A program made the translations under genes and the position numbers. Source: Flavivirga abyssicola (GTDB lineage Bacteria; Bacteroidota; Bacteroidia; Flavobacteriales; Flavobacteriaceae). Taken from it: a stretch of 64,000 nt of DNA. Location of the stretch: NCBI RefSeq assembly GCF_030540775.2, contig NZ_CP141266.1, forward strand, positions 2,839,001 through 2,903,000, in the 5' to 3' direction. Each line of letters opens with the position of its first letter. Positions within the stretch are counted from its first letter, which is position 1. Under the pieces are notes generated by a model that was given only the letters and a program-made list of their open reading frames with translations, did no database searches and was not told the origin of the DNA. Shown one piece after another: positions 17,511 to 52,545 of the stretch.

Positions 17511-17524
17511 TTTTATATTTTTTA

Positions 17525-18355: not shown

Positions 18356-18421
18356 TTTTATGCTGATATTTCTATTTTAATTCCAGTAGTTTTTCGTCTC
18401 ACTATAAAGGCTTATTAAGTT

Positions 18422-19852: not shown

Positions 19853-19931
19853 TAATTTTTGTTTTTTTAATTGACTGTAAAAAGGTTTTAAGATGACAGT
19901 ACAATTATGGTATTAAATATGTTTTTCATAA

Positions 19932-21584: not shown

Positions 21585-21592
21585 CTATATTT

Positions 21593-29652: not shown

Positions 29653-31476
29653 ATGAAAAAATCTATTAAAATAGCTGCAATATTGATTGTTTTAGTTTTT
29701 ATGAGTTGTAAAACAAAAAACGAAGACATCACAAAAAAAACAGAGAAACCCAATGTGATTTTAGTGATCACAGACGATCAAGGCTATGGTGATATTGGAG
29801 CTCATGGAAATAAAATTATTAAAACCCCAAATATTGATGATTTTTATAATGAAAGTTACCACTTAACAGATTTCCATGTTAATCCTACCTGTGCTCCAAC
29901 CCGTTCTGGCTTAATGACTGGTCGATTTGCAAATAGTACAGGTGTTTGGCATACAGTAGGAGGTAGGTCTTTACTAAGAGAAGATGAAAAAACAGTTGCG
30001 GATATGTTTACAGAAAATGGATACATAACTGGTGCTTTTGGTAAGTGGCACATGGGCGATAATTATCCGTTTAGAGCTCATGACCGTGGTTTTCAAGAAA
30101 CCGTTATGCATTATGGTGGTGGCGTACAACAAACACCAGATTATTGGGGTAATGACTATTTTGATGACACCTATTTTAAAAATGGAAAACCGGTTAAGTA
30201 TAAAGGGTATTGTACCGATGTGTTTTTCGAGGAGGCTATTAAGTTTATTCAAACGAATAAAGAAGCCCCATTTTTTTGTTACATCTCAACGAATGCTCCT
30301 CATGGACCTTATAATGTTCCTGTGAACTATTATAATATGTATAAAGACTTAAGTGATGATCTTTTAGCGGATACCCAAAAACGTTTTTATGGGATGATTA
30401 CTAACGTTGATGATAATTTTGGAAAACTAAGAAGGACTTTAAACGAATTAAATATTGCCGATAATACGATTTTAATTTTCATGACCGATAATGGTACATC
30501 ATCGGGGTATTATAATAAAAAAGGAAAGATTACAGGTTATAATGCAGGAATGAGAGGTGTTAAAGGCAGCGAGTATGAAGGAGGACACAGAGTCCCGTTT
30601 TTCATTCATTGGAAAAATGGAAATATTAATGCATCTAAGGATATTAATGAATTAACTGCCCAAATAGATATTTTACCAACATTAGCAGAGTTATGCAATT
30701 TAAAATTGCCTAAAGGGCATTTAGAAATCCATGGGCAAAGTTTAGTTTCAGTGTTAAAGGGGGTTGAGAGTTTAAATGATAGAATGTTAATTACAGATTC
30801 GCAACGTTTGGAGGTTCCTAAAAAATGGAAAAATGCTTCAGTGATGCAAAATAAATGGCGATTAATTAATGGAACAGAACTTTATAATTTAGAGCAGGAT
30901 AAAGGGCAAGTAAATGATGTTGCTTCTCAATATCCAGAAAGAGTAAAAGCAATGCGCCATTTTTATGAAGAATGGTGGGCGCGCATTTCCGGTAAATTTG
31001 ATGAACAGATCTTCTTTAAAATTGGAATCGAGGAAGAAAACCCTATAACCTTAACAGCCCATGATGTGCATTCTGCTAAAGAAGATTACCCTTGGAATCA
31101 AATTCAAATTAGAAAAGGAAAAGTAGGATCTGGCTATTGGAGTATCGATGTAAAACAAGAAGGCGATTATGAGATTTCTTTAAGAAGATATCCCGTGGAA
31201 TCAGGTTTATCTATAAATGCAACAACACCAAAAGTAACTACAGAACAACTTCCAGGATTACAGTTTGATATCCCAGAAGGCGCTAACTTAAATTTTACTA
31301 ATGCTTCCATTAAGATAGGAGACCATATCAGTGAACATGTAAAGATTTCAGATACTGATAAATCGGCAGATTTTAAAGTGCATTTAAAATCAGGGAAAAC
31401 AAAGTTAATAGCAAGTTTTACGAATTCTGAAGGAGAAGAAAATGTAGCTTATTATGCCTATGTCAAAAAACTATAA
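29653..31476 (+). CDS. S1-family sulfatase lipoprotein with C-terminal beta domain
   Basis: A 607-residue sulfatase. The lipobox FMSC gives lipid Cys19. The calcium-binding aspartates are Asp41/Asp42 (ITDDQ). The formylglycine site is CAPTR with Cys80, to be oxidised by a maturase not encoded here. The sulfatase core ends at about residue 450, and the last 130 residues form an extra domain rich in beta strands. It should remove sulfate esters from algal oligosaccharides in the periplasm or at the surface. It is paired with a kelch lipoprotein gene, and an insertion sequence lies just downstream without cutting it. Confidence 0.93.
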   Translation: MKKSIKIAAILIVLVFMSCKTKNEDITKKTEKPNVILVITDDQGYGDIGAHGNKIIKTPNIDDFYNESYHLTDFHVNPTCAPTRSGLMTGRFANSTGVWHTVGGRSLLREDEKTVADMFTENGYITGAFGKWHMGDNYPFRAHDRGFQETVMHYGGGVQQTPDYWGNDYFDDTYFKNGKPVKYKGYCTDVFFEEAIKFIQTNKEAPFFCYISTNAPHGPYNVPVNYYNMYKDLSDDLLADTQKRFYGMITNVDDNFGKLRRTLNELNIADNTILIFMTDNGTSSGYYNKKGKITGYNAGMRGVKGSEYEGGHRVPFFIHWKNGNINASKDINELTAQIDILPTLAELCNLKLPKGHLEIHGQSLVSVLKGVESLNDRMLITDSQRLEVPKKWKNASVMQNKWRLINGTELYNLEQDKGQVNDVASQYPERVKAMRHFYEEWWARISGKFDEQIFFKIGIEEENPITLTAHDVHSAKEDYPWNQIQIRKGKVGSGYWSIDVKQEGDYEISLRRYPVESGLSINATTPKVTTEQLPGLQFDIPEGANLNFTNASIKIGDHISEHVKISDTDKSADFKVHLKSGKTKLIASFTNSEGEENVAYYAYVKKL

Positions 31477-31527: not shown

Positions 31528-32845
31528 AGACCTGTCAGGTTTTCAAAACATAAGTGTTCGGAAGAGCAAAGTTCATTGACATATTTTCATACATTAGTTT
31601 ATTAAATCAAGGTTACATGAGAAAAAAAGTTAGTGTTCACAGTTTATTAAAACTAATAGGCAATGATTTTTTAACGTCTTTGGCCTTGGAGACGGGTACA
31701 AACTATAAATCAAAAAAGTTACAAGGCGAAGTTGTTTTCAAATTATTGCTGATGTCCCTTTTAGACGATAAAAAGATCAGTTTGCGTCTCATGGAGAAAA
31801 CATTTTCCAACAACCTATTCAAGCTTTATTCTGGAATAGAAAAAGGTCAGACCATTAGGCACAGTAGCTTGTCAGAGCGTATTTCCGTTATAAACTCAGC
31901 GTATTTCGAAAGGATACATGCCCATGTTTATGAGCTTTCCGAACAATACTTTGATACAGAACAGGAGCCCTACAATATTCGCCAATTTGATTCAACAAGC
32001 CTGTCCCTTTCTGCCAAACTATTAAAAAAAGGGATGGTCAACGGGCTGAAGAACAAGAAAGGTGAGCATGGCAAGAAACAGATAAAATTCACTGTTGGCC
32101 TGACCAACAACCTGCCGAGCAATATTCGTTTTTATAACGAACAGAAGCACTTAGCAGAAGACCTGACCTTACGTGAGGCGATTCTTAATGCCAATATCAA
32201 GGGTACAGAGGTAGTCGTTTTTGATAGAGGTTTAAAGAAAAGAACAACGTTTCAAGAATTCAACCAGTTGGACATCTTCTTTGTCACAAGAATAAACCCG
32301 ACAAAGAGTATAAAGGTCATTGAGCAAAATAGGTTGGGAAACAGTATTGAGACCGATACTCTAAATATCTTTAGTGATGAGAGGGTATACTTGTACCATC
32401 AGAACAAATCACTTTTAAAGAAACCCTTCAGGCTTATAAGGTCACATTCAAAGCAGACAAGGGAAGAGTTACTGTTCCTGACTAATATAGAAGATTTAAA
32501 TGCGGATGATGTTACCGAGATTTATAAAAGACGTTGGGACATTGAAGTGTTCTTTAAGTTCATAAAGCAGCACTTGCATTTTAAGCATCTTGTCAACCAA
32601 AGTGAAAACGGAATCAAGGTCATGATGTATATGACCATGATTGTTGGGATACTTTTATTGCTTTACAAAAAACTAAACAATGTAAAGAGTTATAAAATAG
32701 CTAAATACGAATTTACCGAGGAACTAAATATGGAAATAATAAGAGAAATAGTAGTGATTTGCGAGGGAGATCCACGCAAATCTGATATATTTGATACCTC
32801 TTAAAGCTCTTCCGAACACTTATGTTTTCAAAACCTGACAGGTCT
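31528..32845 (+). mobile_element. IS4-type insertion sequence, intact, 40-bp inverted repeats
   Basis: A complete insertion sequence of 1318 bases. The left end 31528-31567 and the right end 32806-32845 are inverted copies of 40 bases with a single difference, and each starts AGACCTGTCAGG. One transposase gene fills the inside. It is inserted between two convergent genes and disrupts neither. I could not see a convincing target-site duplication: the 11 bases outside each end do not match. The near-perfect ends and intact gene suggest a recent, possibly active copy. Confidence 0.93.
31617..32804 (+). CDS. IS4-family transposase (DDE type)
   Basis: A 395-residue transposase from the ATG at 31617 (an upstream GTG at 31554 lies in the inverted repeat and is unlikely to be used). 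The DDE residues are Asp125 (RQFDST), Asp203 (VVFDRG) and Glu310. The last is within the YREK signature of IS4 enzymes, YKRRWDIEVFFKFIK. Length and motif spacing are normal, so it should be functional. The stop codon is one base before the right inverted repeat. Confidence 0.92.
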   Translation: MRKKVSVHSLLKLIGNDFLTSLALETGTNYKSKKLQGEVVFKLLLMSLLDDKKISLRLMEKTFSNNLFKLYSGIEKGQTIRHSSLSERISVINSAYFERIHAHVYELSEQYFDTEQEPYNIRQFDSTSLSLSAKLLKKGMVNGLKNKKGEHGKKQIKFTVGLTNNLPSNIRFYNEQKHLAEDLTLREAILNANIKGTEVVVFDRGLKKRTTFQEFNQLDIFFVTRINPTKSIKVIEQNRLGNSIETDTLNIFSDERVYLYHQNKSLLKKPFRLIRSHSKQTREELLFLTNIEDLNADDVTEIYKRRWDIEVFFKFIKQHLHFKHLVNQSENGIKVMMYMTMIVGILLLLYKKLNNVKSYKIAKYEFTEELNMEIIREIVVICEGDPRKSDIFDTS

Positions 32846-35146: not shown

Positions 35147-35917
35147 TTAACTTCCTATCAATTGATTTATATCTAGTTGTGTGTTTTTAAGAATATCGAT
35201 CATGGTATCAATGTTGGTGTCTTCTTCTAGACTAGAAGAAAAAATTGAAATAGCTAAAACAGCTTTTATGCTGGAGTTTTTAGACCCGAGAGGAACAGCA
35301 ATATCAGTAACACCACCAGTTAACTTACTTTTCGAGGATATATAACCATCTTTTTCTATGTTTTCAATGCTAGAAAGAAGGTTTTCCTTTTGCTCTTTGT
35401 TCCAGGTTTTAAAATGACTGTCTCTCGATAAAATAGCAAGTCTCTTTTCTTTTGAAAACATAGACAGTAGCGTTCTTCCAGATGTTGTCATAGATAGAGG
35501 GAAATGCGTTCCTTCTTCAATCGATAGCGATACAGGACTAGGACTTCTCATTTGATAAATAACCAGTAACTGATCATTATTCATAATACTTAAATGACAC
35601 GATTGTCTTGTGGTTTCAGATAAGTGTTGCATGGGAAGACTGGCGACCCGTTTCAATTCATCAAAAGGGGTATGTGTATGAGACAGGTTATACATTTTTA
35701 AAGATAACCTGTATTTACCAGCGTTAGAACCTCTAATTAAATAACCCCTTTCCTCCAGACATATAAGCATTCTGTATATTTCACTGGGCGTTCTGTCAAT
35801 ACCCTGGGCAATTTCAACCTGAGTTAAAGGAATACCCTCCTGGGATAAATATTCAATGATATCAAGACCCTTGTCTAGTGCAGGTGCGTTATATTTTGTT
35901 GAGGTTGTTTTGGTCAT
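35147..35917 (-). CDS. IclR-family transcriptional regulator
   Basis: A 256-residue regulator with an N-terminal winged helix (about 10-70; KGLDIIEYLSQEG, then LTQVEIAQGIDRTPSEIYRM) and a C-terminal effector domain (about 80-250). IclR proteins usually respond to small acids or keto acids. It diverges from the RhaT-like permease and CoA-transferase operon, and a perfect inverted repeat lies between them, so it very likely controls that operon. An acidic effector would agree with the CoA-transferase content. Confidence 0.9.
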   Translation of the reverse strand: MTKTTSTKYNAPALDKGLDIIEYLSQEGIPLTQVEIAQGIDRTPSEIYRMLICLEERGYLIRGSNAGKYRLSLKMYNLSHTHTPFDELKRVASLPMQHLSETTRQSCHLSIMNNDQLLVIYQMRSPSPVSLSIEEGTHFPLSMTTSGRTLLSMFSKEKRLAILSRDSHFKTWNKEQKENLLSSIENIEKDGYISSKSKLTGGVTDIAVPLGSKNSSIKAVLAISIFSSSLEEDTNIDTMIDILKNTQLDINQLIGS

Positions 35918-36030: not shown

Positions 36031-37098
36031 ATGGCAAATCCGATATTAGGTACCTTAATTCATGCAGTTGGAGGTGTTGCAGCTTCTACATGTTATGTTC
36101 CTTTTCAAAAAGTAAAAAAATGGTCATGGGATTCCTATTGGATTGTCCAAGCATCTTTTGCATGGTTTATTTTTCCTTTTTTAATAGGTTTTTTAACAGT
36201 TCCTAATTTATTGGATGTTTTTAGTGAATCACCAACAGATGTTTTAGTAAATGCCACTTTATTGGGAGCTATTTACGGCTTTGGAGGGATGTGTTTTGGT
36301 TTTGCCATTAAACATATAGGATATTCGCTAACGTATACCATATCTATTGGTATTTCAGCAATATTAGGAACCATCGTGCCTTTAATATTGGAAGGTGCTT
36401 TATTTAAAAAGTTTAACGAACCAGGCGGGGCTATCATCTTTTTAGGAATGTTTGTGGCACTTATCGGAATTGTTATTTGTGGTTTAGCAGGTTATAAAAA
36501 AGAAAAAGATTTAAAAGCAAATAATGCCAATAAAGGAGAGGCTTTAACCTTTAATATGAAAAAAGGATTGACGCTAACCTTAATTGCTGGTATTTTATCT
36601 GCCGTTTTTGGTATATCACTAACAGTAGGAGCACCTGTAGCAGAAATAGCAGGAGAATATGGTGCTGGTAATTTTGAGGGAAATGCTAATTTAATACTGT
36701 CTACAGGAGGTGCATTTATTACAAACTTCATTTGGTTTACAATAGCAGGTTTAAGAAAAGGTACATTAAAAGAAATTGTTGATGTTAAAGGGGTAGGTAA
36801 AAAACATTTTACTCTTAACCTTGGAATGTCCATTTTAAGTGGCGCTTTGTGGTACGGACAGTTTTTCTTTTACGGAATAGGACATGTTCAAATGGGAGAT
36901 TATGGTTATGCAAGTTGGGTAATCCACATGTCTATGTTGATCTTCTTTAGCTACATCGTTGGTATTATTATGAAAGAATGGGTTCAGGTGACTAAAAAAA
37001 CAAATATGATATTATTAACAGCCTTAGGCGTGTTGATTATTTCATTTGTAATCATGGCATACGGAACAGTCTTGGGAGAGCAAGTAGTAGCACATTAA
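36031..37098 (+). CDS. RhaT-like sugar permease (L-rhamnose:proton symporter family)
   Basis: A 355-residue inner-membrane protein with about 10 hydrophobic segments, of the RhaT family in the drug/metabolite transporter superfamily. The N-terminal HAVGGVAASTCYVPFQKVKKW segment is characteristic. RhaT imports L-rhamnose with protons, but relatives in Bacteroidota appear in many sugar clusters. It is the first gene of an operon with two CoA-transferase genes, so it probably brings in the starting sugar or acid. A second, partial paralogue ends the window next to GH117. Confidence 0.85.
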   Translation: MANPILGTLIHAVGGVAASTCYVPFQKVKKWSWDSYWIVQASFAWFIFPFLIGFLTVPNLLDVFSESPTDVLVNATLLGAIYGFGGMCFGFAIKHIGYSLTYTISIGISAILGTIVPLILEGALFKKFNEPGGAIIFLGMFVALIGIVICGLAGYKKEKDLKANNANKGEALTFNMKKGLTLTLIAGILSAVFGISLTVGAPVAEIAGEYGAGNFEGNANLILSTGGAFITNFIWFTIAGLRKGTLKEIVDVKGVGKKHFTLNLGMSILSGALWYGQFFFYGIGHVQMGDYGYASWVIHMSMLIFFSYIVGIIMKEWVQVTKKTNMILLTALGVLIISFVIMAYGTVLGEQVVAH

Positions 37099-37107
37099 AA
37101 TACAAGA

Positions 37108-38262
37108 ATGAGTATAAAAAGAATACAATTAAAAGGAATTACATGGAACCATAGTAGAGGTTTTACATCTATGGTAGCCACAGCACAGCGTTTTTCAGAA
37201 TTAAACCCAAATGTAGATATTACATGGGAAAAGAGGTCGTTACAAGCTTTTGCAGATGAGCCGATAAATGAACTGGCAAAACGATATGATCTGCTTATTA
37301 TTGATCACCCCTGGGCGGGGTTTGCAGGTAAAAACAATGTGATTCTACCTTTAGATAAACATTTACCTAAGGCATTTATGGGTGATTTAGCTGAAAATAC
37401 TGTAGGACGCTCCCATGAAAGTTACTCATCAAACGGTCATCAATGGGCATTGGCTGTTGATGCCGCCACACCAGTAGCAGCAAGTAGACCAGATATTCTT
37501 GCAGAAAAAGGGTTTAAATTGCCAGAAACATACGATGATTTATTAGCTTTAGCTAAGGCTGGACTAGTAATCATGCCCGGGATACCCCAAGATACATTAA
37601 TGAATTTTTATATGATGTGTTGTACTTTGGGAGAAGATGTATGTGTATCACAAGATCATGTGGTAAGTGAAGAGATAGGTGTTAAAGCGTTACAATTATT
37701 GCGGGCATTGGCTGTTGAAATGGATTCCCAGATTTATGACTGGAATCCAATTCAAATATATGAAGCCATGACACTTACAGATAAATATGCTTATTGTCCT
37801 TGGGCTTATGGATATACAAACTATAGCAGACAAGGCTATGCACGAAAGTTACTGCATTTTCATGATATGGTAGATATAAAAGGTTTTGGTAAAGCTATTT
37901 CTACTTTAGGAGGTACAGGATTAGCTGTTTCTGCTGAAGCAAAAGAGTTAGAAACCATAATGAAGTATGTAGAGTATGTGGGGTCTGAAGCTTGTCAAAA
38001 AACAGTGTTTTTTGATGGAGGAGGTCAACCTGGACACAGAAAAGCCTGGACAGATGAATATACTAATAGTTTAACGGCTAATTTCTTTAAGAACACCTTG
38101 CCAGGTTTAGATCGTGCTTTTTTACGTCCACGTTATAACGGACATATGTGTTTTCAAGATAGAGCAGGCGCACCAATTAGAGATTATTTAATGAATGGAG
38201 GTGATGAAAAAAGTCTTCTTGTAAGATTGAATGAATTATATAAAAAATCATTAGAGATTTAA
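37108..38262 (+). CDS. Solute-binding-protein-like protein without signal peptide (1)
   Basis: A 384-residue protein with the fold of family 1 extracellular solute-binding proteins: two-lobed layout, ATAQRFSELNPNVDITWE near residue 25, DLLIIDHPW near 61, and late hinge segments. It begins MSIKRIQLKG and lacks any signal peptide or lipobox, so it should stay in the cytoplasm, and no ABC permease or ATPase gene is nearby. Its stop is one base before the CoA-transferase gene, so the two are translationally linked. I infer an enzyme partner, substrate carrier or sensor role. The function is unknown and the arrangement is unusual. Confidence 0.75.
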   Translation: MSIKRIQLKGITWNHSRGFTSMVATAQRFSELNPNVDITWEKRSLQAFADEPINELAKRYDLLIIDHPWAGFAGKNNVILPLDKHLPKAFMGDLAENTVGRSHESYSSNGHQWALAVDAATPVAASRPDILAEKGFKLPETYDDLLALAKAGLVIMPGIPQDTLMNFYMMCCTLGEDVCVSQDHVVSEEIGVKALQLLRALAVEMDSQIYDWNPIQIYEAMTLTDKYAYCPWAYGYTNYSRQGYARKLLHFHDMVDIKGFGKAISTLGGTGLAVSAEAKELETIMKYVEYVGSEACQKTVFFDGGGQPGHRKAWTDEYTNSLTANFFKNTLPGLDRAFLRPRYNGHMCFQDRAGAPIRDYLMNGGDEKSLLVRLNELYKKSLEI

Positions 38263-38263
38263 T

Positions 38264-39406
38264 ATGAGACCATTAGAAGGTATTTTGGTACTTGAGTTTT
38301 GTCAGTTTATGGCAGGGCCATCTGCTGGATTAAGGCTAGCAGATTTAGGAGCCAGAGTGATAAAGATTGAAAGACCTGTTCATGGTGAAGGTGGTAGACA
38401 AATAGCTATTAAGAATTTATTTGTTGATGATAGTAGTTTGGTTTTTCATACCGTAAATAGAAATAAAGAATCTTATGCAGCCAATTTAAAAGATGCAGAT
38501 GATTTAAATCGTGTGAAAAAGTTAATAGAACAGGCTGATGTGATGACTCATAATTTCCGTCCTGGAGTTATGGAAAAGATTGGGTTAGACTATAAAACAG
38601 TTCAAGAAATTAATCCGCAATTGGTTTATGCAACTGTTACAGGATATGGAACCGAAGGGCCATGGGCGAAGAAGCCTGGTCAGGATTTATTGGTGCAATG
38701 TATGTCCGGTTTGGTTAATTTAACTGGAAATAAAAAGGACGAACCCGTTCCTATGGGATTAGCGACAGCCGATCTCATTACAGGAACACATTTAGTTCAT
38801 GGGATTTTAGCAGCAATTATAAAAAGAGGGAAAACAAACAAAGGATCTTTAGTGGAAGTTAGTTTGTTGGAATCTATGTTAGATTTTCAGTTTGAAGTGA
38901 TTACTACGTATTTAAACGACGGAAATCAATTACCTAAAAGAGCAGAACAAGGATCGGCACATGCATACTTAGGAGCGCCTTATGGCGTTTATAAAACCAA
39001 AAATGGCTATATTTCATTAGCTATGGGGTCTTTAATAAACCTTGCTAAGGTTTTGGAGTGTACAGAACTAGAATCTTATACAGATACAAATTCCTGGTTT
39101 GAAAAGCGTGATGAAATTATGGATATCCTTAGAGATGTTCTTATTAAAAAGAATACAAATGAATGGTTGGAAATTTTAGATGCTAGCGGTATTTGGTGTT
39201 CAGATGTTTACGATTATAAAACATTACTCAATCATGAAGCTTATAAGGTTTTGGGAATGGATCAGAAATTACAATTGTATTCAGGCGAAGAAGTACATAC
39301 AACACGATGTCCTATTCGGTTGAATGATGAAAAGTTATACGCTTCAAAAGCAGCCCCAAAAGTAGGGCAAGATACAGAAGCTATTTTAAAAGAGTTCAAT
39401 TTATAA
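38264..39406 (+). CDS. Class III (CaiB/BaiF) CoA-transferase 1
   Basis: A 380-residue family III CoA-transferase. The N-terminal [23 protein letters not shown] motif, NRNKES near residue 66, and the catalytic aspartate Asp170 in LATADLITG are present, and length is normal. The enzyme moves CoA from a donor thioester to a carboxylic acid. It is about 55-60 percent identical by eye to the next gene product, so the two may form a heteromer or handle successive acids. It lies one base after a leaderless solute-binding-like gene. The acid is unknown; a sugar-derived acid is likely. Confidence 0.9.
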
Positions 39407-39422
39407 ATCGATAGTTATTAAA

Positions 39423-40568
39423 ATGAAACCATTAGAAGATATATTGATTATAGATTTAAGTCAGTTCTTATCGGCACCATCAGCGACATTAAGACTAGCA
39501 GATTTAGGAGCCAGAGTGATAAAAGTTGAACGACCAGAAACAGGAGATATTTGTAGACAGTTATATGTTTCTAATGTTATTTTAAATGGCGAATCTTCAG
39601 TTTTTAGAGCTATAAATAGAAATAAGGAAAGTTTTCAAGCCGATTTAAAAAATGATGTTGATAAGCAGCGTGTTTTAAAATTAATTGAAAAAGCCGATGT
39701 ATTGGTACATAATTTCAGACCAGGTGTTATAGAACGTTTAGGGTTTGATTATGAAACGATTCAGAAAATAAATCCATCCATTATTTATGGTGACATTTCT
39801 GGATATGGAAATGAAGGTCCTTGGAAATCGAAACCAGGCCAAGATTTATTAGTCCAATCTTTATCAGGTTTAACCTGGTTGAGTGGAAATGCAGGAAATG
39901 GACCAGTACCAATGGGATTAGCTATTGTTGATATTTTATCTGGATCGCATTTAGCACAAGGTATTTTAGCAGCGCTAGTTAAAAAGGCGAAAACAGGTAA
40001 AGGAACAAAAGTTTCTGTAAGTATGTTGGAGTCTATTTTAGATTTTCAATTTGAAACGATTACGACATATTATCACGATGGCGGACAACCAACAGAACGT
40101 ACAGCAAGCAATAATGCACATGCCTATTTAGGAGCACCATATGGTGTTTATGAGACTAGTAATGGGTATTTGGCTTTAGCTATGGGAGCCATTCCCTTTT
40201 TAGGAGAATTATTAGGCTGTGACGCACTTAAAAATTACCTAGAAGTGGCTAGTTGGTTTACACAACGAGACGACATAAAAAACATATTAGCAACACATTT
40301 AAAAACGGATACGACCGAAAAATGGTTGTCAATATTAGAACCAGCAGATATTTGGTGTGCCAGTGTTATGGATTGGGATACACTCTTTGACCACGATGGA
40401 TTTAAAGTTTTGGACATGATCCAAAACGTTACAATGGGAGATGGTTTTGAGTATGAAACGACACGTTGTCCAATTAAAATTGATGGACAATTATTAAAAT
40501 CCTCATTAGGATCTCCATCTTTGGGAGAACATACAAAAGCTATTATAAACGAATTAATTACTAACTAA
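39423..40568 (+). CDS. Class III (CaiB/BaiF) CoA-transferase 2
   Basis: A 381-residue paralogue of the preceding enzyme. It has the same motifs ([28 protein letters not shown], catalytic Asp170 in LAIVDILSG). Its stop codon shares one base with the start codon of the second leaderless solute-binding-like gene, mirroring the close link between the first pair. This gives the order binding protein, transferase, transferase, binding protein. Both transferases keep the catalytic residue, so neither looks like a dead subunit. Confidence 0.9.
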
Positions 40569-41800
40569 TGGCGCAAAGTAAATTTAGAATTGCTGTCCGA
40601 AAATTTGATGCATTTGAATCTGCTATAGATAAAATATGGGCTTCTTTTTGTAAAGAAACAGGTTGCAATCTAGAGTTGGAAGCAGTTCCTTTAGATTTGC
40701 ATCCATTATATGATACTATTTTAAAAGAAAATGGATTAGCTAATGGCGCATGGGACGTATCTTTAATAAACACAGATTGGATTACTGAAGCCTATGCTAC
40801 CAATGCCATAGAAGATTTAACACCGTATATTAATGAAAATGCGCCTAATGATTTCCCTAATGGCTGGTCAAGATCTTTATTGTATAAACAAGAATTTGAC
40901 AATAAAATAGTTGGGCTTCCATTTCACGACGGGCCAGAATGTTTAATTTATAGAAAAGATTTATTCGAATCTATTGAAGAAGGTGTTAATTTTTACAAAG
41001 TTCATGGTAAACCATTAGAGATTCCAAAAACATGGGATGACTTAATGCAAGTAGCAGAGTTTTTTAACAGACCGGAAGATGATTTATATGGAACTACTTT
41101 CGCTGCGTTTCCAGATGGACATAATACAGTATTTGATTTTTGCTTACAATTATGGACGCGTCATGGCGAATTATTTGATAGTCATAAGAACATCAAATTA
41201 AATTCAAAAGAAGCTATTGAAGGCATGATATTCTATAGAAAGGCACTTCAAAATTTTAATGCCATACACCCTGAATCCAGAGATTTTGACTCTGTAAAAT
41301 CAGGGATGGCTTTTGCTAACGGTAATTTAGCGATGATGGTGAACTGGTTTGGTTTTGCTTCCATGTGTGAGTTTTTAGAAGATTCAAAAGTAAAGGGAAA
41401 AGTAGATATTGCAAATGTTCCTGCTGGACCAAATGGAGAAGGAACATCATTAAACGCATATTGGATGTATGTTATTGGAAGTGGTAGCCAAAACAAAGAT
41501 TTAGCATACGAGTTTATTAAGTATGCGGTGAATGAAGAAAATGATAAGTTATTAACTTTAGAGGGTGCTATTGGTTGTCGCAAATCTACCTGGCATGATG
41601 CAGATGTGAATAAAGAAGTACCTTATTATCATAAATTAGAAGCATTACATAAAAAAACGCGATCGCTTCCAAGAAAAAGTAATTGGTCTGAAATAGCCAA
41701 TGTTATCGATCAGTTAGTGTTAGATGTTATAAATACTTCAAAAGATATTAAGTTAATTTTAGACAATGCTCAAAAACAAGTAGATCGTATGGAAAAATAA
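40568..41800 (+). CDS. Solute-binding-protein-like protein without signal peptide (2)
   Basis: A 410-residue family 1 solute-binding-like protein, starting [10 protein letters not shown] with no export signal. Family features include WDVSLINTDWITEAYATNAIEDLTPYI near residue 60-90 and SGMAFANGNLAMMVNWFGFA near 240. It is longer than, and clearly diverged from, the first copy. Its ATG overlaps the stop of CoA-transferase 2 by one base. Without an ABC transporter or a signal peptide it cannot act as a normal uptake receptor. Cytoplasmic binding of the acid or of its CoA ester is a reasonable guess, not shown by the sequence. Confidence 0.75.
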   Translation: MAQSKFRIAVRKFDAFESAIDKIWASFCKETGCNLELEAVPLDLHPLYDTILKENGLANGAWDVSLINTDWITEAYATNAIEDLTPYINENAPNDFPNGWSRSLLYKQEFDNKIVGLPFHDGPECLIYRKDLFESIEEGVNFYKVHGKPLEIPKTWDDLMQVAEFFNRPEDDLYGTTFAAFPDGHNTVFDFCLQLWTRHGELFDSHKNIKLNSKEAIEGMIFYRKALQNFNAIHPESRDFDSVKSGMAFANGNLAMMVNWFGFASMCEFLEDSKVKGKVDIANVPAGPNGEGTSLNAYWMYVIGSGSQNKDLAYEFIKYAVNEENDKLLTLEGAIGCRKSTWHDADVNKEVPYYHKLEALHKKTRSLPRKSNWSEIANVIDQLVLDVINTSKDIKLILDNAQKQVDRMEK

Positions 41801-41880: not shown

Positions 41881-42951
41881 ATGAAATTAGTTTACAAGCC
41901 AGAATTACCAAAAGAAAAGCGCCCAATTTATATTATTGGAGCAGGGGGGATTGTGAGAGATGCACATTTACCAGCATATAGAAACGTGGGCTTTGTGGTT
42001 GAAGGTATTACAAACAGAACGAAACAAAGAGCAGATGATTTAGCTGAAGCATTTAACATTCCTAATGTTTATAATAATGTAGAAGACATGGTAGCTGCGG
42101 CACCGGAAAATGCCGTTTTCGACCTTACACTAATGCCTAATCAATTTGTAGCTACTTTAGAATTATTGCCAGACGAAGCGGCGGTACTGATTCAAAAGCC
42201 AATGGGAGATGATTATAAGCAAACCTTAGAGATTTTAGAAGTTTGTAGAAGAAAAAAATTAAAAGCAGCTATTAACTGCCAAATGCGTTTTGCTCCGTAT
42301 GTTATGGCAGCAAAATATTTAATAGAGAAAGGGCTCATAGGTGAATTATACGATTTTGAAATTCGTTTAACAACTTATACACCATGGGAGTATTTTCCAA
42401 ATGTAGTGAATCATCCACGTTTAGAAATTCAACAACATAGTATTCATTATATCGATTTAATTCGTTCGTTTTTAGGAAACCCAAAAAAGGTATATTCAAA
42501 AACGTTGAGAAACCCAGGAAAACCTATGTCTTCAACACGAACTACAACGATTATGGATTATAATGATGCCATGCGTGCTATTATTAATACCAATCATGAT
42601 CATAATTTTGGAGAGAAAAATCAGGAAAGTTTTGTGAAATGGGAAGGAACAAAAGGTGCTATTAAAGCTAGAATAGGATTGCTATTGGATTACCCCAATG
42701 GAAAGCCAGATTTATTTCAATACTGTATAGTTAAAGAAGGAGAAGATCCAAAATGGGTTGAGGTTCCGCTAGAAGGATCCTGGTTTCCAGATGCTTTTGT
42801 TGGAACGATGGCGTCTTTAATGCGTTATGTTGAAGGATCTGCCAACGAGCTTCCAACGAGTGTGGAAGATGTTGTACATTCTATGGCAATAGTGGAGTCT
42901 GCATACGAATCAAATAACCAAGGAGGTGTTACTCCTAATTATAATATTTAA
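41881..42951 (+). CDS. Gfo/Idh/MocA family oxidoreductase
   Basis: A 356-residue NAD(P)-dependent sugar oxidoreductase. The Rossmann loop is GAGGIVRDAHLPA (from residue 20), the EKP-type motif appears as QKPMG near residue 107, and the HxxxD pair occurs in HSIHYIDLIRSF near residue 200. The family acts on sugar hydroxyls, often at C1, C3 or C4, in the cytoplasm. It follows the CoA-transferase genes after an 80-base gap on the same strand and probably belongs to the same pathway. The substrate is unknown. The Glu-to-Gln change in EKP is a known variant. Confidence 0.85.
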   Translation: MKLVYKPELPKEKRPIYIIGAGGIVRDAHLPAYRNVGFVVEGITNRTKQRADDLAEAFNIPNVYNNVEDMVAAAPENAVFDLTLMPNQFVATLELLPDEAAVLIQKPMGDDYKQTLEILEVCRRKKLKAAINCQMRFAPYVMAAKYLIEKGLIGELYDFEIRLTTYTPWEYFPNVVNHPRLEIQQHSIHYIDLIRSFLGNPKKVYSKTLRNPGKPMSSTRTTTIMDYNDAMRAIINTNHDHNFGEKNQESFVKWEGTKGAIKARIGLLLDYPNGKPDLFQYCIVKEGEDPKWVEVPLEGSWFPDAFVGTMASLMRYVEGSANELPTSVEDVVHSMAIVESAYESNNQGGVTPNYNI

Positions 42952-43305: not shown

Positions 43306-44322
43306 ATGAAAGCAACACAATATGAAGGTAATAAGACCTTCAAGGTATTAGAAAAGGAAATTGAAGCACCCAAACAAGGCGACGTTAGGATTAAAGTGGC
43401 GTATGTAGGGGTTTGTGGAACAGATGTACATATTTACCACGGTATGATGGATAAGCGAGTTAATATTCCTGAAACTATTGGTCATGAAATGTCAGGTGTT
43501 ATTGATGCACTTGGAGACGGTGTAACAGGCTATAAAGTTGGAGATAAAGTGGTTGTCCGCCCGTTGGATGATAGAAAAGTAAAGCCTTCAGATAAAGGAT
43601 TTAACCACATTTGTGAAGAATTAAAGTTTATAGGAATTGATAGTCCAGGAGCCATGCAGGAATATTGGAACGTTCCCGCATTTACATTACATAAACTAAA
43701 AGACAACACCGATTTAAAATTAGCTGCTTTAATTGAGCCGCTTTCAGTAGCAACACATGATGTTCGCTTAAGTGGATTGGTGGCAGGAGAAACGGCTGTT
43801 GTTTTAGGTGGAGGCCCAATAGGTTTATTGGTAGCGATGGTTGCTAAAGAAGTTGGTGCGAATGTTATTATTTCTGAGGTAAATGAAACACGTATTGCTA
43901 AAGCAAAAGAAATGGGATTAAATGCTGTAAACCCAATGCATATTGATTTGGTGCAATATGTAAGAGAACAAACAGAAGGGAGATTGGCAGATGTTGTTTT
44001 TGAAGTGGCCGGTGTACAACCTGCTTTAGATATTATGACAGAAATAGCAGGTATTAGAGGCCGAATTTTAATGGTAGCTATTCATGGACAAAAGAAAGAA
44101 GTTGACCTGTTTAAGTTCTTTTGGAAAGAATTAAAATTAATCGGTGCTCGTGTTTATGAAAAAGAAGATTATGAAAAATCAATAGCCTTAATCACAGCTA
44201 ATGAGTTGCCGTTTGAAGATATGATTACCGATGTACAACCATTAAGTAAGGTTCAACAAGTTTTTGAAAATATAGATAATAACCCAGATGGCATGAAGGT
44301 GTTGATGGATTGTCAATTATAG
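43306..44322 (+). CDS. Zinc-type alcohol dehydrogenase (MDR family) without structural zinc
   Basis: A 338-residue medium-chain dehydrogenase. Catalytic zinc ligands are in CGTDVH (37-42) and GHE (near 60), and the nucleotide loop is VLGGGPIGLL near residue 161. The lobe that usually carries four structural-zinc cysteines has only one (HICEELKF), so the structural zinc is absent. Relatives oxidise sugar alcohols, aldonates or threonine. It belongs to the sugar-acid cluster downstream of the Gfo/Idh/MocA gene. The substrate is unknown. Confidence 0.85.
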   Translation: MKATQYEGNKTFKVLEKEIEAPKQGDVRIKVAYVGVCGTDVHIYHGMMDKRVNIPETIGHEMSGVIDALGDGVTGYKVGDKVVVRPLDDRKVKPSDKGFNHICEELKFIGIDSPGAMQEYWNVPAFTLHKLKDNTDLKLAALIEPLSVATHDVRLSGLVAGETAVVLGGGPIGLLVAMVAKEVGANVIISEVNETRIAKAKEMGLNAVNPMHIDLVQYVREQTEGRLADVVFEVAGVQPALDIMTEIAGIRGRILMVAIHGQKKEVDLFKFFWKELKLIGARVYEKEDYEKSIALITANELPFEDMITDVQPLSKVQQVFENIDNNPDGMKVLMDCQL

Positions 44323-44628: not shown

Positions 44629-45399
44629 ATGAGTATTTTGAACAAATTTAGTTTAGAAGGAAAAACGGCCTTAGTAACAGGCTGCAAAAGAGGTATAGGT
44701 AAAGCTATGGCTATAGGTTTGGCAGAAGCAGGCGCTAATATCATTGGAGTGTCAGCTTCATTGGAATTAGAAGGTAGTGATGTTGAAAAAGCAGTGCTGG
44801 CTACAGGAAAAAGTTTTAAAGCCTATCAATGTGACTTTTCAGATAGGAAAGCCTTATACGCTTTTATTGCAGAAGCTAAAAAAGACAATCCAACCATAGA
44901 TATTTTAGTTAATAATGCAGGCACTATTTTAAGAGCCCCTGCTGCAGAACATTCAGATGAATTGTGGGATAAAGTCATTGAGGTAAACCAAAATGCGCAG
45001 TTCATTTTAACCAGAGAGTTTGGTAAAGACATGGTCGCTAGAGGTTCTGGGAAAGTCATCTTTACAGCGTCGTTACTTACATTCCAAGGAGGAATTACAG
45101 TTCCGGGATATGCTGCAAGTAAAGGTGCTATTGGTCAATTAACTATGGCTTTTTCTAACGAATGGGCTGGCAAAGGCGTTAATGTAAATGCAATTGCACC
45201 TGGCTATATTTCAACAGACAATACAGAAGCATTAAGAAATGATCCGGTAAGAGCAGAATCTATTTTATCTCGTATTCCAGCTGGAAGATGGGGAGAAGCC
45301 ACAGATTTTGCCGGACCAACAGTATTTTTAGCTTCAGAAGCTGCGGCCTACATGAATGGATCTGTCGTACTTGTTGACGGTGGATGGATGGGGAGATAA
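44629..45399 (+). CDS. SDR oxidoreductase, KduD-like (2-deoxy-D-gluconate 3-dehydrogenase type)
   Basis: A 256-residue short-chain dehydrogenase with cofactor loop TGCKRGIG (from 17), NNAG near 95, and catalytic Ser148, Tyr161, Lys165 (YAASK). The N-terminal FSLEGKTALVTG and the overall length are like KduD, which acts on deoxy-keto sugar acids from uronate breakdown. It is followed 24 bases later by a MaoC-like gene, so it may oxidise or reduce a hydroxy-acyl intermediate in the CoA pathway. The exact substrate is not known. Confidence 0.86.
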   Translation: MSILNKFSLEGKTALVTGCKRGIGKAMAIGLAEAGANIIGVSASLELEGSDVEKAVLATGKSFKAYQCDFSDRKALYAFIAEAKKDNPTIDILVNNAGTILRAPAAEHSDELWDKVIEVNQNAQFILTREFGKDMVARGSGKVIFTASLLTFQGGITVPGYAASKGAIGQLTMAFSNEWAGKGVNVNAIAPGYISTDNTEALRNDPVRAESILSRIPAGRWGEATDFAGPTVFLASEAAAYMNGSVVLVDGGWMGR

Positions 45400-45423: not shown

Positions 45424-45876
45424 ATGCATATTTTATCAAGATTTTATGAAGACTACGAATTAGGTAGTAAAAGAGAAACTTTAGGAAGGACGATAACAGA
45501 GACTGATTTTGTTGTTCATGCTGGTCATACAGGTGATTATTTTCCACATCATATGGATGCCGAATGGTGCAAAACACAACCTTTTAAACAACGTATTGCT
45601 CATGGTACATTAACATTTAGTGTAGGTATAGGCATGACAGCAACAGAGATTAACCCAGAGGCTTTTTCTAAGGGTTATGATAGATTACGTTTTATAAAGC
45701 CTGTATATATTGGAGATACCATTAGAGTGGTAGTGACTATTAGTGAAAAGAAAGCATCTAAACATCCTGAATTGGGACATGTTAATGAGCATGTTGAAAT
45801 ATTTAATCAACGGGATGAGTTGGTTTTAGTTTGCGACCATATTCTTTTAGCTAAGAAAAAAGAGTTTGAGGCTTAA
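45424..45876 (+). CDS. MaoC-like (R)-specific hydratase/dehydratase
   Basis: A 150-residue hotdog-fold protein. The hydratase motif is visible as [13 protein letters not shown], with Asp38 and His43 in the D-x4-H arrangement, followed by the helix around [12 protein letters not shown]. Such enzymes add water to, or remove it from, enoyl-CoA esters, for example mesaconyl-CoA or crotonyl-CoA. It is the only enzyme in the window that clearly needs a CoA thioester, which ties it to the CoA-transferases upstream. A terminator follows at about 45972. Confidence 0.86.
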
Positions 45877-46465: not shown

Positions 46466-48142
46466 ATGAAGGATCAATTAAAAATAGTGTTATTTGCTTT
46501 TTTATGCATGTTAATGTTTACTCAATTATATGCTCAAGAACGCCCTAATATTATTTTCATTTTAACCGATGACCAGTCCTACGGATTATTAGGATGCACA
46601 GGTAATGAGATTGTAAAAACCCCTCATATAGATAAATTGGCAGAAGCAGGTACTTTGTTTACAAATGCGCATGTAACTAGTGCGATATGTACGCCAAGCA
46701 GAATTTCTATTTTATTGAGTCAATTTGAACGCAAACACGGAGTAAATTTTAATTCAGGAACCAGTGTTTCTGAAGAAGCATGGGAGCAATCTTATCCCGT
46801 TGTGATGCGAAAAGCAGGTTATTATACTGGTTGGATAGGGAAAAACCATGCACCGATTGGCAAAGGCGGTTATCAAAGTGGGGTCATGGAAAAAAGTTTT
46901 GATTATTGGTATGCTGGTCATGGACACTTAGGTTTTTATCCAAAAAAAAGGCATAAAATATTTAATGATGCCATCTCCCATACGCAACCAGAAATTATAA
47001 ATGAAGGCGTTAATGACTTTTTAGATAATAATGAGAGAAGATTGGATGGGGCTATTGACTTTTTAGATGGAAGACCAGAAGATAAGCCCTTTTTGTTATC
47101 TATTAATTTCAATTTACCACATGGAGCGAGTACTAGTAGCATGAAATTAAGAGATAATGATGATGACATTTACAAAACATTGTATCGTGATTTAGATATC
47201 CCCTTGCCGGACAATTATATAGCTAAAGCCAATATTCAAACTCCAAAATTACCAGGTGATTTACTTCGTGCAGAAGACAGACAAAAAGGGTATAGTTATG
47301 TAGATACCCCAGAAGAGACTAGAGAGAGGTATATACGTCAATTACAAGCAATGACGGGTATTGATCGCTTGGTTGGAAACCTAAGAAGTAAACTAAAAGC
47401 AATGAAATTAGATAAAAAAACGATTATCATTTTTACTTCAGATCATGGATTATTTATGGGAGAACAGGGGTTAGGAGGAAAAGCATTGTGCTATGAAAAA
47501 ACAACCCATGTACCACTAATCGTATTAGATCCATCAGTTAAAAGAAAATTAAAAGGCATCAAAACAGATGCTTTAGTACAATCTATAGATATTGCTCCTA
47601 CCATTTTAAAAATGGGTCATGTTGAAGCTCCAGAATCTTTTCAAGGGAAAGACATCTCTACTTTAGTTAAAGGTGGTGAAAATGAAGTTAGAGATTACCT
47701 ATTTACCGAAAATCTATGGTCAACGCAGTTTGGTAACCCGCGTTGTGAAGCTATTCAAAATAAAGAATGGAAATATATTAGATATTATAAAAATAACACG
47801 TTTTCGGCTCGTAAAAAAATAGCTGTAGCAAAAGAATTAGGGATCAAAGAGAATAAAATGTTGTATGCTGTACACGATACTGATATTGCGGTTTATCGAG
47901 ATTATATCGAATCGTCTGTAAATGGAGAGCAACCTGTTTATGAAGAACTGTACAACTTAAAAAATGACCCAGCAGAACTGAATAATCTAGCACAAAAAAG
48001 AGACTATAAGGCTATTCTAAAAACACTACAGTCCGTTTGGGCAAAGAAAATTAAATACGCTCGCGGAGAAGATGCTCCCAAGGTTAATAGATTTACAATT
48101 GATAGTCAGTTAGAATCAAAGAAAAAAATACACTTAGAATGA
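46466..48142 (+). CDS. S1-family sulfatase (secreted)
   Basis: A 558-residue sulfatase with a cleavable signal peptide (about 1-23, ending LYAQ). Metal ligands Asp35/Asp36 (LTDDQ), formylglycine site CTPSR with Cys75, and the late metal motif FTSDHG near residue 330 are all present. It should remove sulfate from an algal oligosaccharide. It begins a tightly packed operon: the last four bases (ATGA) overlap the start of the next sulfatase gene, and GH28, GH29 and a third sulfatase gene follow. A full set of catalytic residues suggests activity. Confidence 0.93.
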   Translation: MKDQLKIVLFAFLCMLMFTQLYAQERPNIIFILTDDQSYGLLGCTGNEIVKTPHIDKLAEAGTLFTNAHVTSAICTPSRISILLSQFERKHGVNFNSGTSVSEEAWEQSYPVVMRKAGYYTGWIGKNHAPIGKGGYQSGVMEKSFDYWYAGHGHLGFYPKKRHKIFNDAISHTQPEIINEGVNDFLDNNERRLDGAIDFLDGRPEDKPFLLSINFNLPHGASTSSMKLRDNDDDIYKTLYRDLDIPLPDNYIAKANIQTPKLPGDLLRAEDRQKGYSYVDTPEETRERYIRQLQAMTGIDRLVGNLRSKLKAMKLDKKTIIIFTSDHGLFMGEQGLGGKALCYEKTTHVPLIVLDPSVKRKLKGIKTDALVQSIDIAPTILKMGHVEAPESFQGKDISTLVKGGENEVRDYLFTENLWSTQFGNPRCEAIQNKEWKYIRYYKNNTFSARKKIAVAKELGIKENKMLYAVHDTDIAVYRDYIESSVNGEQPVYEELYNLKNDPAELNNLAQKRDYKAILKTLQSVWAKKIKYARGEDAPKVNRFTIDSQLESKKKIHLE

Positions 48143-49434
48143 AAAACGCTTTATTAATATTATTGTTCAGTTTCCTAATTTATGGAGTCAATGCACAAAG
48201 TAACTTTAATATAGTGCTCATTGAATCCGATGACCAAAGTAATCAAGCTATAGGTGCTTATGACAATCCATCTATGGTAACTCCAAATATGGACACACTT
48301 GCCAAAGAAGGGGTCTCATTTACATCGGCTTACAATATGGGGTGTTGGTCTCCTGCGGTATGTGTACCTAGTAGAACAATGCTTTTTTATGGGCAATACT
48401 TATGGGATTCACGAAAAATCACTAAAGAAAATGCACCTATATCATTACCGGAAATATTAAAAAAGCAAGGGTACAATACTTATATGACAGGCAAGTGGCA
48501 TGTTTGGGGTAATAAGCCCAAGGATATTTTTGACCAAACAGGCACCATACTTCCCGGACAACTTAAAACCTATTACAAAAAAGAAGGACATGCAACAGAT
48601 ATTGTTGGTAACGAAGCTGCTCAATACATAAAGGAATATAATAGCGACAAACCATTCTTTGTTTATGCTGCTTTTAATGCCCCACATGTGCCTAGAGAAA
48701 CAGAACAGAAATATTACGATTTATATCCCGTTAATAAAATGGAACTTCCGCCTAGTGTTATTAATAACAGTCCTTTAAATCCAAACATAAAATATAACTA
48801 TACCAAAGCGCCTATAAAAGCTGAAATAATGAAATCCAGAGTGCAGCAAAATAATGCTATGGTAACTCATATGGACGAACGTATAGGAGATATTTTAAAT
48901 GCTTTGAAAGAAAAAGGGGTTTACGATAATACGATCATTGTTTTCATGTCCGATCATGGTATAAGTTTTGGCGAGAATGGCGTTGCAGGAAAAGTGTGCT
49001 TATACGAACCAAGTGTTACAGCTCCGTTAATTATAAAAGCACCAGGTATAACTGCTAATAAAAAAATAGAAGACAGGGTCTACCTTCAAGATATACTTCC
49101 AACACTTTTAGAGTTGGTTGATGTTAAAACGGATGCAGATTTTGATTTTCAAAGTTTAACTCCCCTTATCAATAAAACAGATCAAGCAAGAGCATCTATT
49201 TATTTGGCAATGTTTGATGATCAAAGAGGGGTCATTTCTAATAATAAGAAATTGATTATTTACCCAAAATCTAATGATATTGAACTATATGATTTTAAAA
49301 TAGACCCTTGGGAAACAACTAACCTTATAGATACCAAAAAAGGAAAAAAAGAATTTAAACAACTTCATAAAGAACTAATGATCTGGCAAGAAAACGTTGG
49401 AGATACGGTAAACTTAAAATCGATTAAATACTAA
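48139..49434 (+). CDS. S1-family sulfatase, short form (secreted)
   Basis: A 431-residue sulfatase with signal peptide (about 1-20, ending VNAQ). Asp31/Asp32 (ESDDQ) bind the metal, the formylglycine site is CVPSR with Cys75, and FMSDHG occurs near residue 272. It lacks long C-terminal additions, so it is smaller than the other three sulfatases in the window. Translation is coupled to the previous gene by the ATGA overlap, and GH28 starts 11 bases later. The sulfate position attacked is unknown. Confidence 0.92.
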   Translation: MKNALLILLFSFLIYGVNAQSNFNIVLIESDDQSNQAIGAYDNPSMVTPNMDTLAKEGVSFTSAYNMGCWSPAVCVPSRTMLFYGQYLWDSRKITKENAPISLPEILKKQGYNTYMTGKWHVWGNKPKDIFDQTGTILPGQLKTYYKKEGHATDIVGNEAAQYIKEYNSDKPFFVYAAFNAPHVPRETEQKYYDLYPVNKMELPPSVINNSPLNPNIKYNYTKAPIKAEIMKSRVQQNNAMVTHMDERIGDILNALKEKGVYDNTIIVFMSDHGISFGENGVAGKVCLYEPSVTAPLIIKAPGITANKKIEDRVYLQDILPTLLELVDVKTDADFDFQSLTPLINKTDQARASIYLAMFDDQRGVISNNKKLIIYPKSNDIELYDFKIDPWETTNLIDTKKGKKEFKQLHKELMIWQENVGDTVNLKSIKY

Positions 49435-49445
49435 TTTTCTATAGT

Positions 49446-50840: not shown

Positions 50841-50943
50841 AAAACGAATTCTCTTTTCTACAGCTATGTTGTTTTGCTTATTAAAAATCAAAGCAGAACT
50901 ATTTGGTGATGTAGATAATCAAAATATAGAAACAAATAAGTAA
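50833..50943 (+). pseudogene. Orphan signal-peptide frame (36 codons)
   Basis: A short frame overlapping the end of the GH28 gene by eight bases. It reads as a signal peptide (MNKKRILF, hydrophobic run to about residue 17) and a short tail, ending at a stop eight bases before the ATG of the GH29 gene. It may be the start of a deleted exported protein gene or a true small peptide. No family is recognised. Confidence 0.35.
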
Positions 50944-50950
50944 GAGTATA

Positions 50951-52534: not shown

Positions 52535-52545
52535 AACCATTCAAA

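Follow-up and report, generated by a model that had tools for sequence, protein, structure and literature searches.

A 64,000-nucleotide stretch of the forward strand of the Flavivirga abyssicola genome (assembly GCF_030540775.2, contig NZ_CP141266.1, positions 2,839,001 to 2,903,000), here called the window and numbered from its first base, contains four consecutive genes in which two homologues of family-1 solute-binding proteins (SBPs), SBP1 and SBP2, enclose two CaiB-type coenzyme A (CoA)-transferases, CaiB1 and CaiB2:

37108..38262, + strand: SBP1, leaderless family-1 binding-protein homologue (PF01547, 31.7 bits; sugar-SBP fold)
38264..39406, + strand: CaiB1, predicted class III CoA-transferase, Asp170 intact (PF02515, 331.2 bits, full length)
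39423..40568, + strand: CaiB2, predicted class III CoA-transferase, Asp170 intact (PF02515, 321.6 bits, full length)
40568..41800, + strand: SBP2, second leaderless family-1 binding-protein homologue (PF01547, 96.2 bits; sugar-SBP fold)

All four reading frames are intact. SBP1 and CaiB1 are separated by 1 base and CaiB1 and CaiB2 by 16 bases, and CaiB2 and SBP2 overlap by 1 base; the gene order, the spacing within the two outer pairs and the Asp170 of both transferases are as an earlier note on this stretch had described them. SBP1 is a weak but genuine member of SBP_bac_1 (cut-off, 26 bits) and SBP2 a clear one; at E 0.001 both match SBP_bac_1 and SBP_bac_8 alone in Pfam, while in NCBIfam SBP1 has no match and SBP2 matches weak SBP models only. 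BLASTP finds no similarity between the two proteins above the chance level (best E 0.07). In-frame stop codons are located 3 codons upstream of the SBP1 start and 1 codon upstream of the SBP2 start, so that no longer start can conceal a signal peptide; an overlooked upstream start was rejected on this ground, and the outer genes lack signal peptides, as the earlier note had claimed.

The genome is a single contig of 4,684,200 bases. In a six-frame scan of it, PF01547 matches were confined to SBP1 and SBP2 (the best SBP1 fragment in a six-frame genome scan reached 23.7 bits, under the PF01547 cut-off), and matches to PF02515 (CoA_transf_3) in the whole genome were confined to CaiB1 and CaiB2. 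No permease or ATPase of an ATP-binding cassette (ABC) transporter was found among the window open reading frames (ORFs) of at least 150 amino acids, which were assessed by reading, with profile searches run on part of them; this agrees with the earlier note. PF00528 has 3 matches in the genome, which by reading are 2 dipeptide-type permeases and 1 nitrate-type permease; no sugar ABC permease was seen among them, and there is therefore no visible sugar ABC importer for SBP1 or SBP2 to serve. A partner ABC transporter elsewhere in the genome was rejected on the basis of the PF01547 and PF00528 scans. SBP1 and SBP2 thus belong to the same sequence family, and have the same two-lobed fold, as the family-1 ABC SBPs SmoF, MalE3, LpqY and the Thermococcus trehalose/maltose-binding protein, but differ from them in having neither an export signal or lipobox nor a cognate permease and ATPase, and in being linked to CoA-transferases.

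The AlphaFold models of both proteins are confident (SBP1, pLDDT 93.9 and pTM 0.90; SBP2, pLDDT 91.7 and pTM 0.88), and Foldseek matched both to sugar-binding proteins, with TM-scores of 0.83 for SBP1 to SmoF and LpqY and of 0.87 for SBP2 to 1eu8. The SBP2 model is closer to maltose-bound MalE3 (0.85) than to apo MalE3 (0.75); for SBP1 the corresponding difference is small (0.81–0.84 to the listed SmoF complexes, 0.77–0.81 to ligand-free SmoF). In an alignment of 107 SBP1 sequences, 80 of them from the near set described below, W13, R17, W40, D61, D66, Y106, D118, Y239, Q307, W314 and R340 are fixed in all 107, and H15 and H67 are each changed in 2. The counterpart of R340 in the SmoF chain is residue 345, likewise an Arg. 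Where SmoF and 1eu8 have the Trp of their LGGW motif, SBP1 has T270, and this position holds Thr (96), Val (6) or Ala (5) in the 107 sequences; the loss of this aromatic residue would be more in keeping with an open-chain acid than with a ring sugar.

SBP1 and the transferases are co-inherited. SBP1 is present in 14 of 149 relatives, and PF02515 occurs in all 14 of these versus 8 of the 135 others (hypergeometric P 2e-14, uncorrected for kinship, with 8 of the 14 carriers being Flavivirga). Within the genus its presence is patchy (8 of 12 listed Flavivirga members). Of 296 genomes of the phylum, 42 gave an SBP1 match at E 0.001: in 16 the match is a full-length family member (E ≤4.5e-150), and in 26 it is a generic SBP aligned over part of its length (E ≥1.8e-10). 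Ten of the 16 genomes with full-length SBP1, and none of the other 280, also have SBP2; in one of these ten (G426), the two genes share a contig but lie about 60 kb apart. When the classes to which two proteobacterial carriers belong were searched, the full-length protein was found in 6 of 337 genomes (any match, 68) and 2 of 274 (any match, 18), counts that include the seed genomes. Ten near whole-genome regions (L018–L027) all contain SBP1-CaiB1-CaiB2, and nine contain SBP2. Three genus members have an extra MaoC-like gene (167 amino acids) between CaiB1 and CaiB2, which is missing in the window (L018, 5655–6158; L021, 6089–6592; L022, 10335–10838).

A contig scan yielded at least 577 confirmed SBP1 relatives, of which the best 80 (59–87% identity; 67 Bacteroidota and 13 Pseudomonadota) represent the near part of the family and are referred to as the 80 loci; gene calls in them favour long non-overlapping ORFs, so that counts of MaoC, short-chain dehydrogenase/reductase (SDR) and alcohol dehydrogenase genes are lower bounds. 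The earlier note had proposed looking for the same gene order in other genomes and for the absence of leaders throughout. Two CaiB domains follow SBP1 on the same strand in all 80 loci, in the order CaiB1-CaiB2 in 78, and the gap between SBP1 and CaiB is at most 30 bases in 62 (median 2.5, maximum 586); SBP2 was called in 46. By a hydropathy scan of these loci, a hydrophobic N-terminus is present in none of the 80 SBP1 and none of the 46 SBP2 proteins, compared with 33 of 40 generic SBPs, where the 7 under the threshold include ORFs with doubtful starts. Cytoplasmic proteins may also score high in this test (≥2.0 in 40/46 Gfo and 28/153 CaiB proteins, fused ORFs counted once), and only the absence of a signal was used. 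Permease matches number 0 in the 80 loci, and ATPase-like matches occur in two (L081 and L100). Neither of the outcomes that the earlier note had named as fatal to its proposal was found: the homologues in these loci do not combine signal peptides with ABC permeases, and the arrangement, with intact frames, recurs in other families and phyla.

The module exists in two forms, SBP2-Gfo-MaoC and crotonase-aldehyde dehydrogenase. In addition to the 46 loci with SBP2, crotonase was called in 31; both are present in one locus (L034, where the crotonase gene lies upstream on the opposite strand) and neither in four (L051, L069, L072 and L092). Of the loci with SBP2, 45 also have Gfo and 39 MaoC; of those with crotonase, 29 have aldehyde dehydrogenase. 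All 13 proteobacterial loci, 12 from Gammaproteobacteria and one from an alphaproteobacterium, have the crotonase form. The motif GDxxPxHxD is present in 39/39 MaoC homologues and the crotonase Glu motif in 28/31. MaoC and crotonase have unrelated folds and both hydrate or dehydrate CoA thioesters; since either can stand in for the other next to the same CaiB pair, the CoA thioester of a hydroxy acid is suggested as an intermediate.

CaiB1 and CaiB2 are 53% identical and have both the PF02515 profile and the catalytic Asp of class III CoA-transferases, the latter being present in 160/160 CaiB domains of the 80 loci; CoA transfer is nevertheless a predicted activity, as the PF02515 family includes racemases. 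In seven of ten Hymenobacter loci (L060, L061, L063, L064, L071, L074 and L102), CaiB1 and CaiB2 are joined head to tail in one ORF of 792–835 amino acids that keeps both catalytic Asp residues, which suggests that the two CaiBs form one (hetero-)unit. One genome has a second CaiB gene pair on the contig that carries its SBP1 cluster, at a distance of about 92 kb (G010:C8:155315-157569).

These loci also decide the fate of the idea, put forward in the earlier note, that each binding-like protein is made together with one transferase. The crotonase form has no SBP2 and keeps two CaiBs, in many proteobacterial loci SBP1 stands with a single CaiB, the Hymenobacter fusions join the CaiBs to each other, and 7 of 13 distant loci (see below) have no CaiB near SBP1. 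A strict one-to-one match of SBPs and CaiBs was accordingly rejected; SBP2 is dispensable. The wider proposal of the same note, recruitment to the cytoplasm, is partly supported: the proteins are leaderless in the relatives examined, conserved with CaiB and distinct from the SBPs of neighbouring transporters. In the larger of two phylogenetic trees, leadered SBPs separate the SBP1 clade (support 100/100) from the SBP2 clade (100/99), but the fork dividing the leadered rows is weak (73/88); both trees have long branches, and in the smaller one a joint leaderless clade of SBP1 and SBP2 is not rejected (approximately unbiased test, p 0.115). SBP2 may be a second binding protein that was recruited to the same pathway independently of SBP1.

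Plasmids extend the range of these observations. SBP1 matches 145 plasmid records, from which 14 regions were viewed for spread together with 2 picked via SBP2; 15 of these hold SBP1. CaiB directly adjoins SBP1 in 13 of the 15, namely those of Persicobacter, Rufibacter, Sinorhizobium meliloti 1021, S. medicae, Rhizobium BG6, Croceibacterium, Streptomyces NBC_00184, Roseibium, Variovorax, Methylobacterium, Qingshengfaniella, Sinorhizobium M103 and Pararhizobium (the order in two of these, S. meliloti 1021 and Rhizobium BG6, is taken from ORFs called in this analysis). The transporters near SBP1 vary: an ABC system with two permeases in Roseibium, Qingshengfaniella, Pararhizobium, Rhizobium and Variovorax, an ABC system with one permease in Croceibacterium and Sinorhizobium M103, a tripartite ATP-independent periplasmic (TRAP) system in Jannaschia (with an ABC system further off), a major facilitator superfamily (MFS) protein in Methylobacterium and Streptomyces ITFR-6, and RhaT in Persicobacter, Rufibacter and the window. 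The neighbouring ABC and TRAP systems have their own SBPs, of which 9 of 11 (one of the 11 being from a haloarchaeon) carry a strong hydrophobic leader and 2 a Tat- or lipobox-like start, versus a leader in 0 of 13 SBP1 and 0 of 2 SBP2 proteins in the same comparison. Because these transporters change in type and bring their own leadered SBP, SBP1 is no part of transport; the separate leadered SBPs are the strongest evidence against such a role. A plasmid of the haloarchaeon Halostagnicola larsenii (L182, 7992–9227) encodes a leaderless SBP2 relative (36% identity) in a cluster with a CoA-transferase, an AMP-binding protein, MaoC, Gfo and a separate ABC transporter, and in Methylobacterium an AMP-binding protein follows SBP1; these AMP-binding proteins also point to CoA activation.

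The other genes of the F. abyssicola cluster are as follows:

35147..35917, − strand: IclR-type regulator, divergent from the cluster (PF01614, 84.1 bits; PF09339, 42.4 bits)
36031..37098, + strand: RhaT-type sugar-proton symporter, likely importer (PF06379, 190 bits)
41881..42951, + strand: Gfo/Idh/MocA oxidoreductase (PF01408, 41.1 bits)
43306..44322, + strand: zinc-type alcohol dehydrogenase (PF08240, 91.4 bits)
44629..45399, + strand: SDR oxidoreductase, KduD-like (PF00106, 175 bits; TIGR01832, 316.6 bits, below the cut-off of 338.85)
45424..45876, + strand: MaoC-type hydratase/dehydratase with the motif GDYFPHHMD (PF01575, 80.5 bits)

Among the 80 loci, IclR was called in 38, a RhaT homologue in 13, an MFS protein (cluster 6) in 35, zinc-type alcohol dehydrogenase in at least 5 and SDR in at least 6. 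These neighbours fit the sugar-acid and CoA theme that the earlier note had proposed. Loci of relatives contain genes of 6-deoxy-sugar metabolism, including alpha-L-rhamnosidase, alpha-L-fucosidases, L-rhamnose mutarotase and a protein like 2,4-didehydro-3-deoxy-L-rhamnonate hydrolase (411.6 bits, under the cut-off of 500). The glycosidase neighbours vary between loci, and a single sugar is not pinned down from them. In the window, an L-fucose dehydrogenase over the NCBIfam cut-off (353.8 bits; cut-off 300) is encoded about 20 kb upstream.

The L-fucose dehydrogenase gene lies in an oxidative L-fucose set at 16722–22603 on the − strand, with a fuconolactonase-like protein (274 bits, below the cut-off of 400), a galactarate/altronate-dehydratase-like protein and an alcohol dehydrogenase. 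Sulfatase-like and alpha-L-fucosidase-like ORFs, named by reading, flank the cluster (23739–25277, 29653–31476, 46466–54102 and 59361–60938), and by these names the surroundings resemble a sulfated-fucan degradation region. By reading, a GTG-start ORF at 31554–32804 resembles an IS4-type transposase.

We tentatively favour, at a confidence just short of an even judgement, the reading in which SBP1-CaiB1-CaiB2-SBP2 is the core of a widespread cytoplasmic catabolic module acting on a sugar-acid CoA thioester, with the binding fold as the substrate-handling partner of CaiB. The ligand, the contact with CaiB, the order of steps, the identity of the sugar and the chemistry are what we infer here. 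A monosaccharide would enter via RhaT and be oxidized to an acid by the Gfo/Idh/MocA, alcohol dehydrogenase and SDR enzymes. CaiB1 and CaiB2, probably one hetero-unit, would then use Asp170 to load the acid with CoA; the resulting thioester would be hydrated or dehydrated by MaoC, or by crotonase where the module has that form; and, much as happens in the carnitine CaiB/CaiD cycle, a further acid would take over the CoA. SBP1, plus SBP2 in this form, would descend from binding proteins of transport systems, would have lost the export signal and would most likely hold the sugar acid in their cleft and act with CaiB; they are placed at this putative acid-handing step because they are coupled to CaiB. 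Possible, and put forward with somewhat greater reserve, is the more specific view that a leaderless sugar-receptor clade moved into the cytoplasm to become a partner that class III CoA-transferases cannot do without, either handing over their substrate or taking part in catalysis. The two would serve a CoA-thioester route that acts on 6-deoxy-sugar acids of the fucose or rhamnose type and that would have spread through Bacteroidota, Pseudomonadota, Actinomycetota and, represented there by an SBP2 relative, a haloarchaeon.

Several observations weigh against a close partnership between the binding fold and CaiB. The crotonase form does without SBP2, and none of the 80 loci showed an SBP fused to a CaiB, the SBP1 ORFs measuring 378–419 and the SBP2 ORFs 404–468 amino acids. 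In S. meliloti 1021 (L015, pSymB 10839–11998), SBP1 is intact but CaiB reads as two ORFs that overlap in different frames, whereas S. medicae (L016) has one CaiB ORF of 386 amino acids. CaiB is 2.6 kb from SBP1 in Streptomyces ITFR-6 and 4.5 kb in Jannaschia. Among 13 distant whole-genome loci (L028–L033, L164–L169 and L173), CaiB is adjacent in 5 and one gene off in 1 (L030), and the other 7 have no CaiB in the stretch, which in L166 and L167 is truncated by the end of the contig; in L032, CaiB lies about 19 kb off on the same contig. Neighbours at the distant loci include SDR, crotonase, UxuA-type and, by reading, enolase-type dehydratase genes. The loci without CaiB indicate that the family is tied to sugar-acid catabolism more broadly than to CaiB, so that an enzymatic role for the binding fold gains weight, while a single leaderless clade devoted to a 6-deoxy-sugar route, and a sensory role, lose some.

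In such an enzymatic role, which is a close competitor albeit a less probable one, SBP1 (and SBP2) would themselves catalyse a sugar- or keto-acid step, as isomerase, lyase or dehydratase with a periplasmic binding protein (PBP) fold, beside CaiB and not as its subunit. The polar residues R17, D66, D118, Y239, Q307 and R340, invariant across SBP1 sequences that are mostly close kin, exceed what a change-prone transport receptor needs, some relatives without a nearby CaiB have SDR, crotonase and dehydratase genes, and the cytosolic PBP-fold enzymes MqnA, MqnD and THI5 provide a precedent for cytoplasmic use of the fold. These enzymes belong to other families, however, no catalytic motif is known for the SBP_bac_1/SBP_bac_8 branch of the fold, the models of SBP1 and SBP2 look like ordinary sugar receptors, and the tight coupling to CaiB in near relatives and most plasmid regions speaks against an enzyme acting apart from it.

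A role of SBP1 and SBP2 in sensing or buffering a sugar acid in the cytoplasm and signalling its level, for example to the IclR regulator, is unlikely: an IclR gene is nearby in almost half of the 80 loci and in most alphaproteobacterial regions viewed, but IclR proteins have their own ligand domain (PF01614), LacI-type regulators replace IclR at other loci, and translational coupling runs to CaiB and not to the regulator. Very improbable is a function as ordinary transport binding proteins with unusual export or a distant ABC partner; the family-1 sequence and fold and the ABC transporters in several alphaproteobacterial clusters would agree with it, whereas no sugar permease was seen in this genome, permeases are missing from the 80 loci, adjoining transporters have separate SBPs, and the transporter type switches while SBP1 stays. 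The grouping of the four genes is not chance, and decay or a genome-specific accident, for which nothing in the window speaks, though the presence in the genus is patchy, is rejected by the open frames, by the same order in other families and phyla and by the restriction of SBP_bac_1 and CoA_transf_3 matches to this block of the genome.

Compared with known systems, the proposed partnership of binding fold and CaiB has partial counterparts. In the carnitine CoA cycle (CaiB and the crotonase CaiD), a class III CoA-transferase likewise stands beside a thioester hydro-lyase, which in the present module is of the crotonase or MaoC type, but CaiB1 (106.7 bits) and CaiB2 (80.9 bits) score far under the L-carnitine CoA-transferase cut-off of 413, and the present module has surrounding sugar genes and a binding-protein partner. 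Benzylsuccinate CoA-transferase has two different CaiB-type subunits (PDB 9fn0, chains A and B), like CaiB1 and CaiB2; its substrate is aromatic, though, CaiB1 is nearer to other class III enzymes, and the Asp is kept in both CaiBs here. We know of no SBP associated with that enzyme. The oxidative non-phosphorylating L-fucose and L-rhamnose pathways share as neighbours L-rhamnose mutarotase, an enolase-type dehydratase, a lactonase-like amidohydrolase and a fumarylacetoacetate (FAA) hydrolase, and to our knowledge involve neither a CoA-transferase nor MaoC nor a cytosolic SBP. Enzymes with a PBP fold that act in the cytosol, and cycles of CaiB with a crotonase, are already known; a description of the present layout was not found by searches aimed at it in the accessible part of the literature, which included PMC9007349 and covered few subscription papers or preprints.

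Family-1 binding proteins are annotated as extracellular parts of transporters, which the leaderless SBP1 clade cannot be, and many records of this clade are probably misnamed. If the proposed pathway is true, degraders of algal and plant polysaccharides would break down sugar acids via CoA thioesters, a route of which we know no description. The pairing raises the testable question of what a receptor fold contributes to a CoA-transferase.

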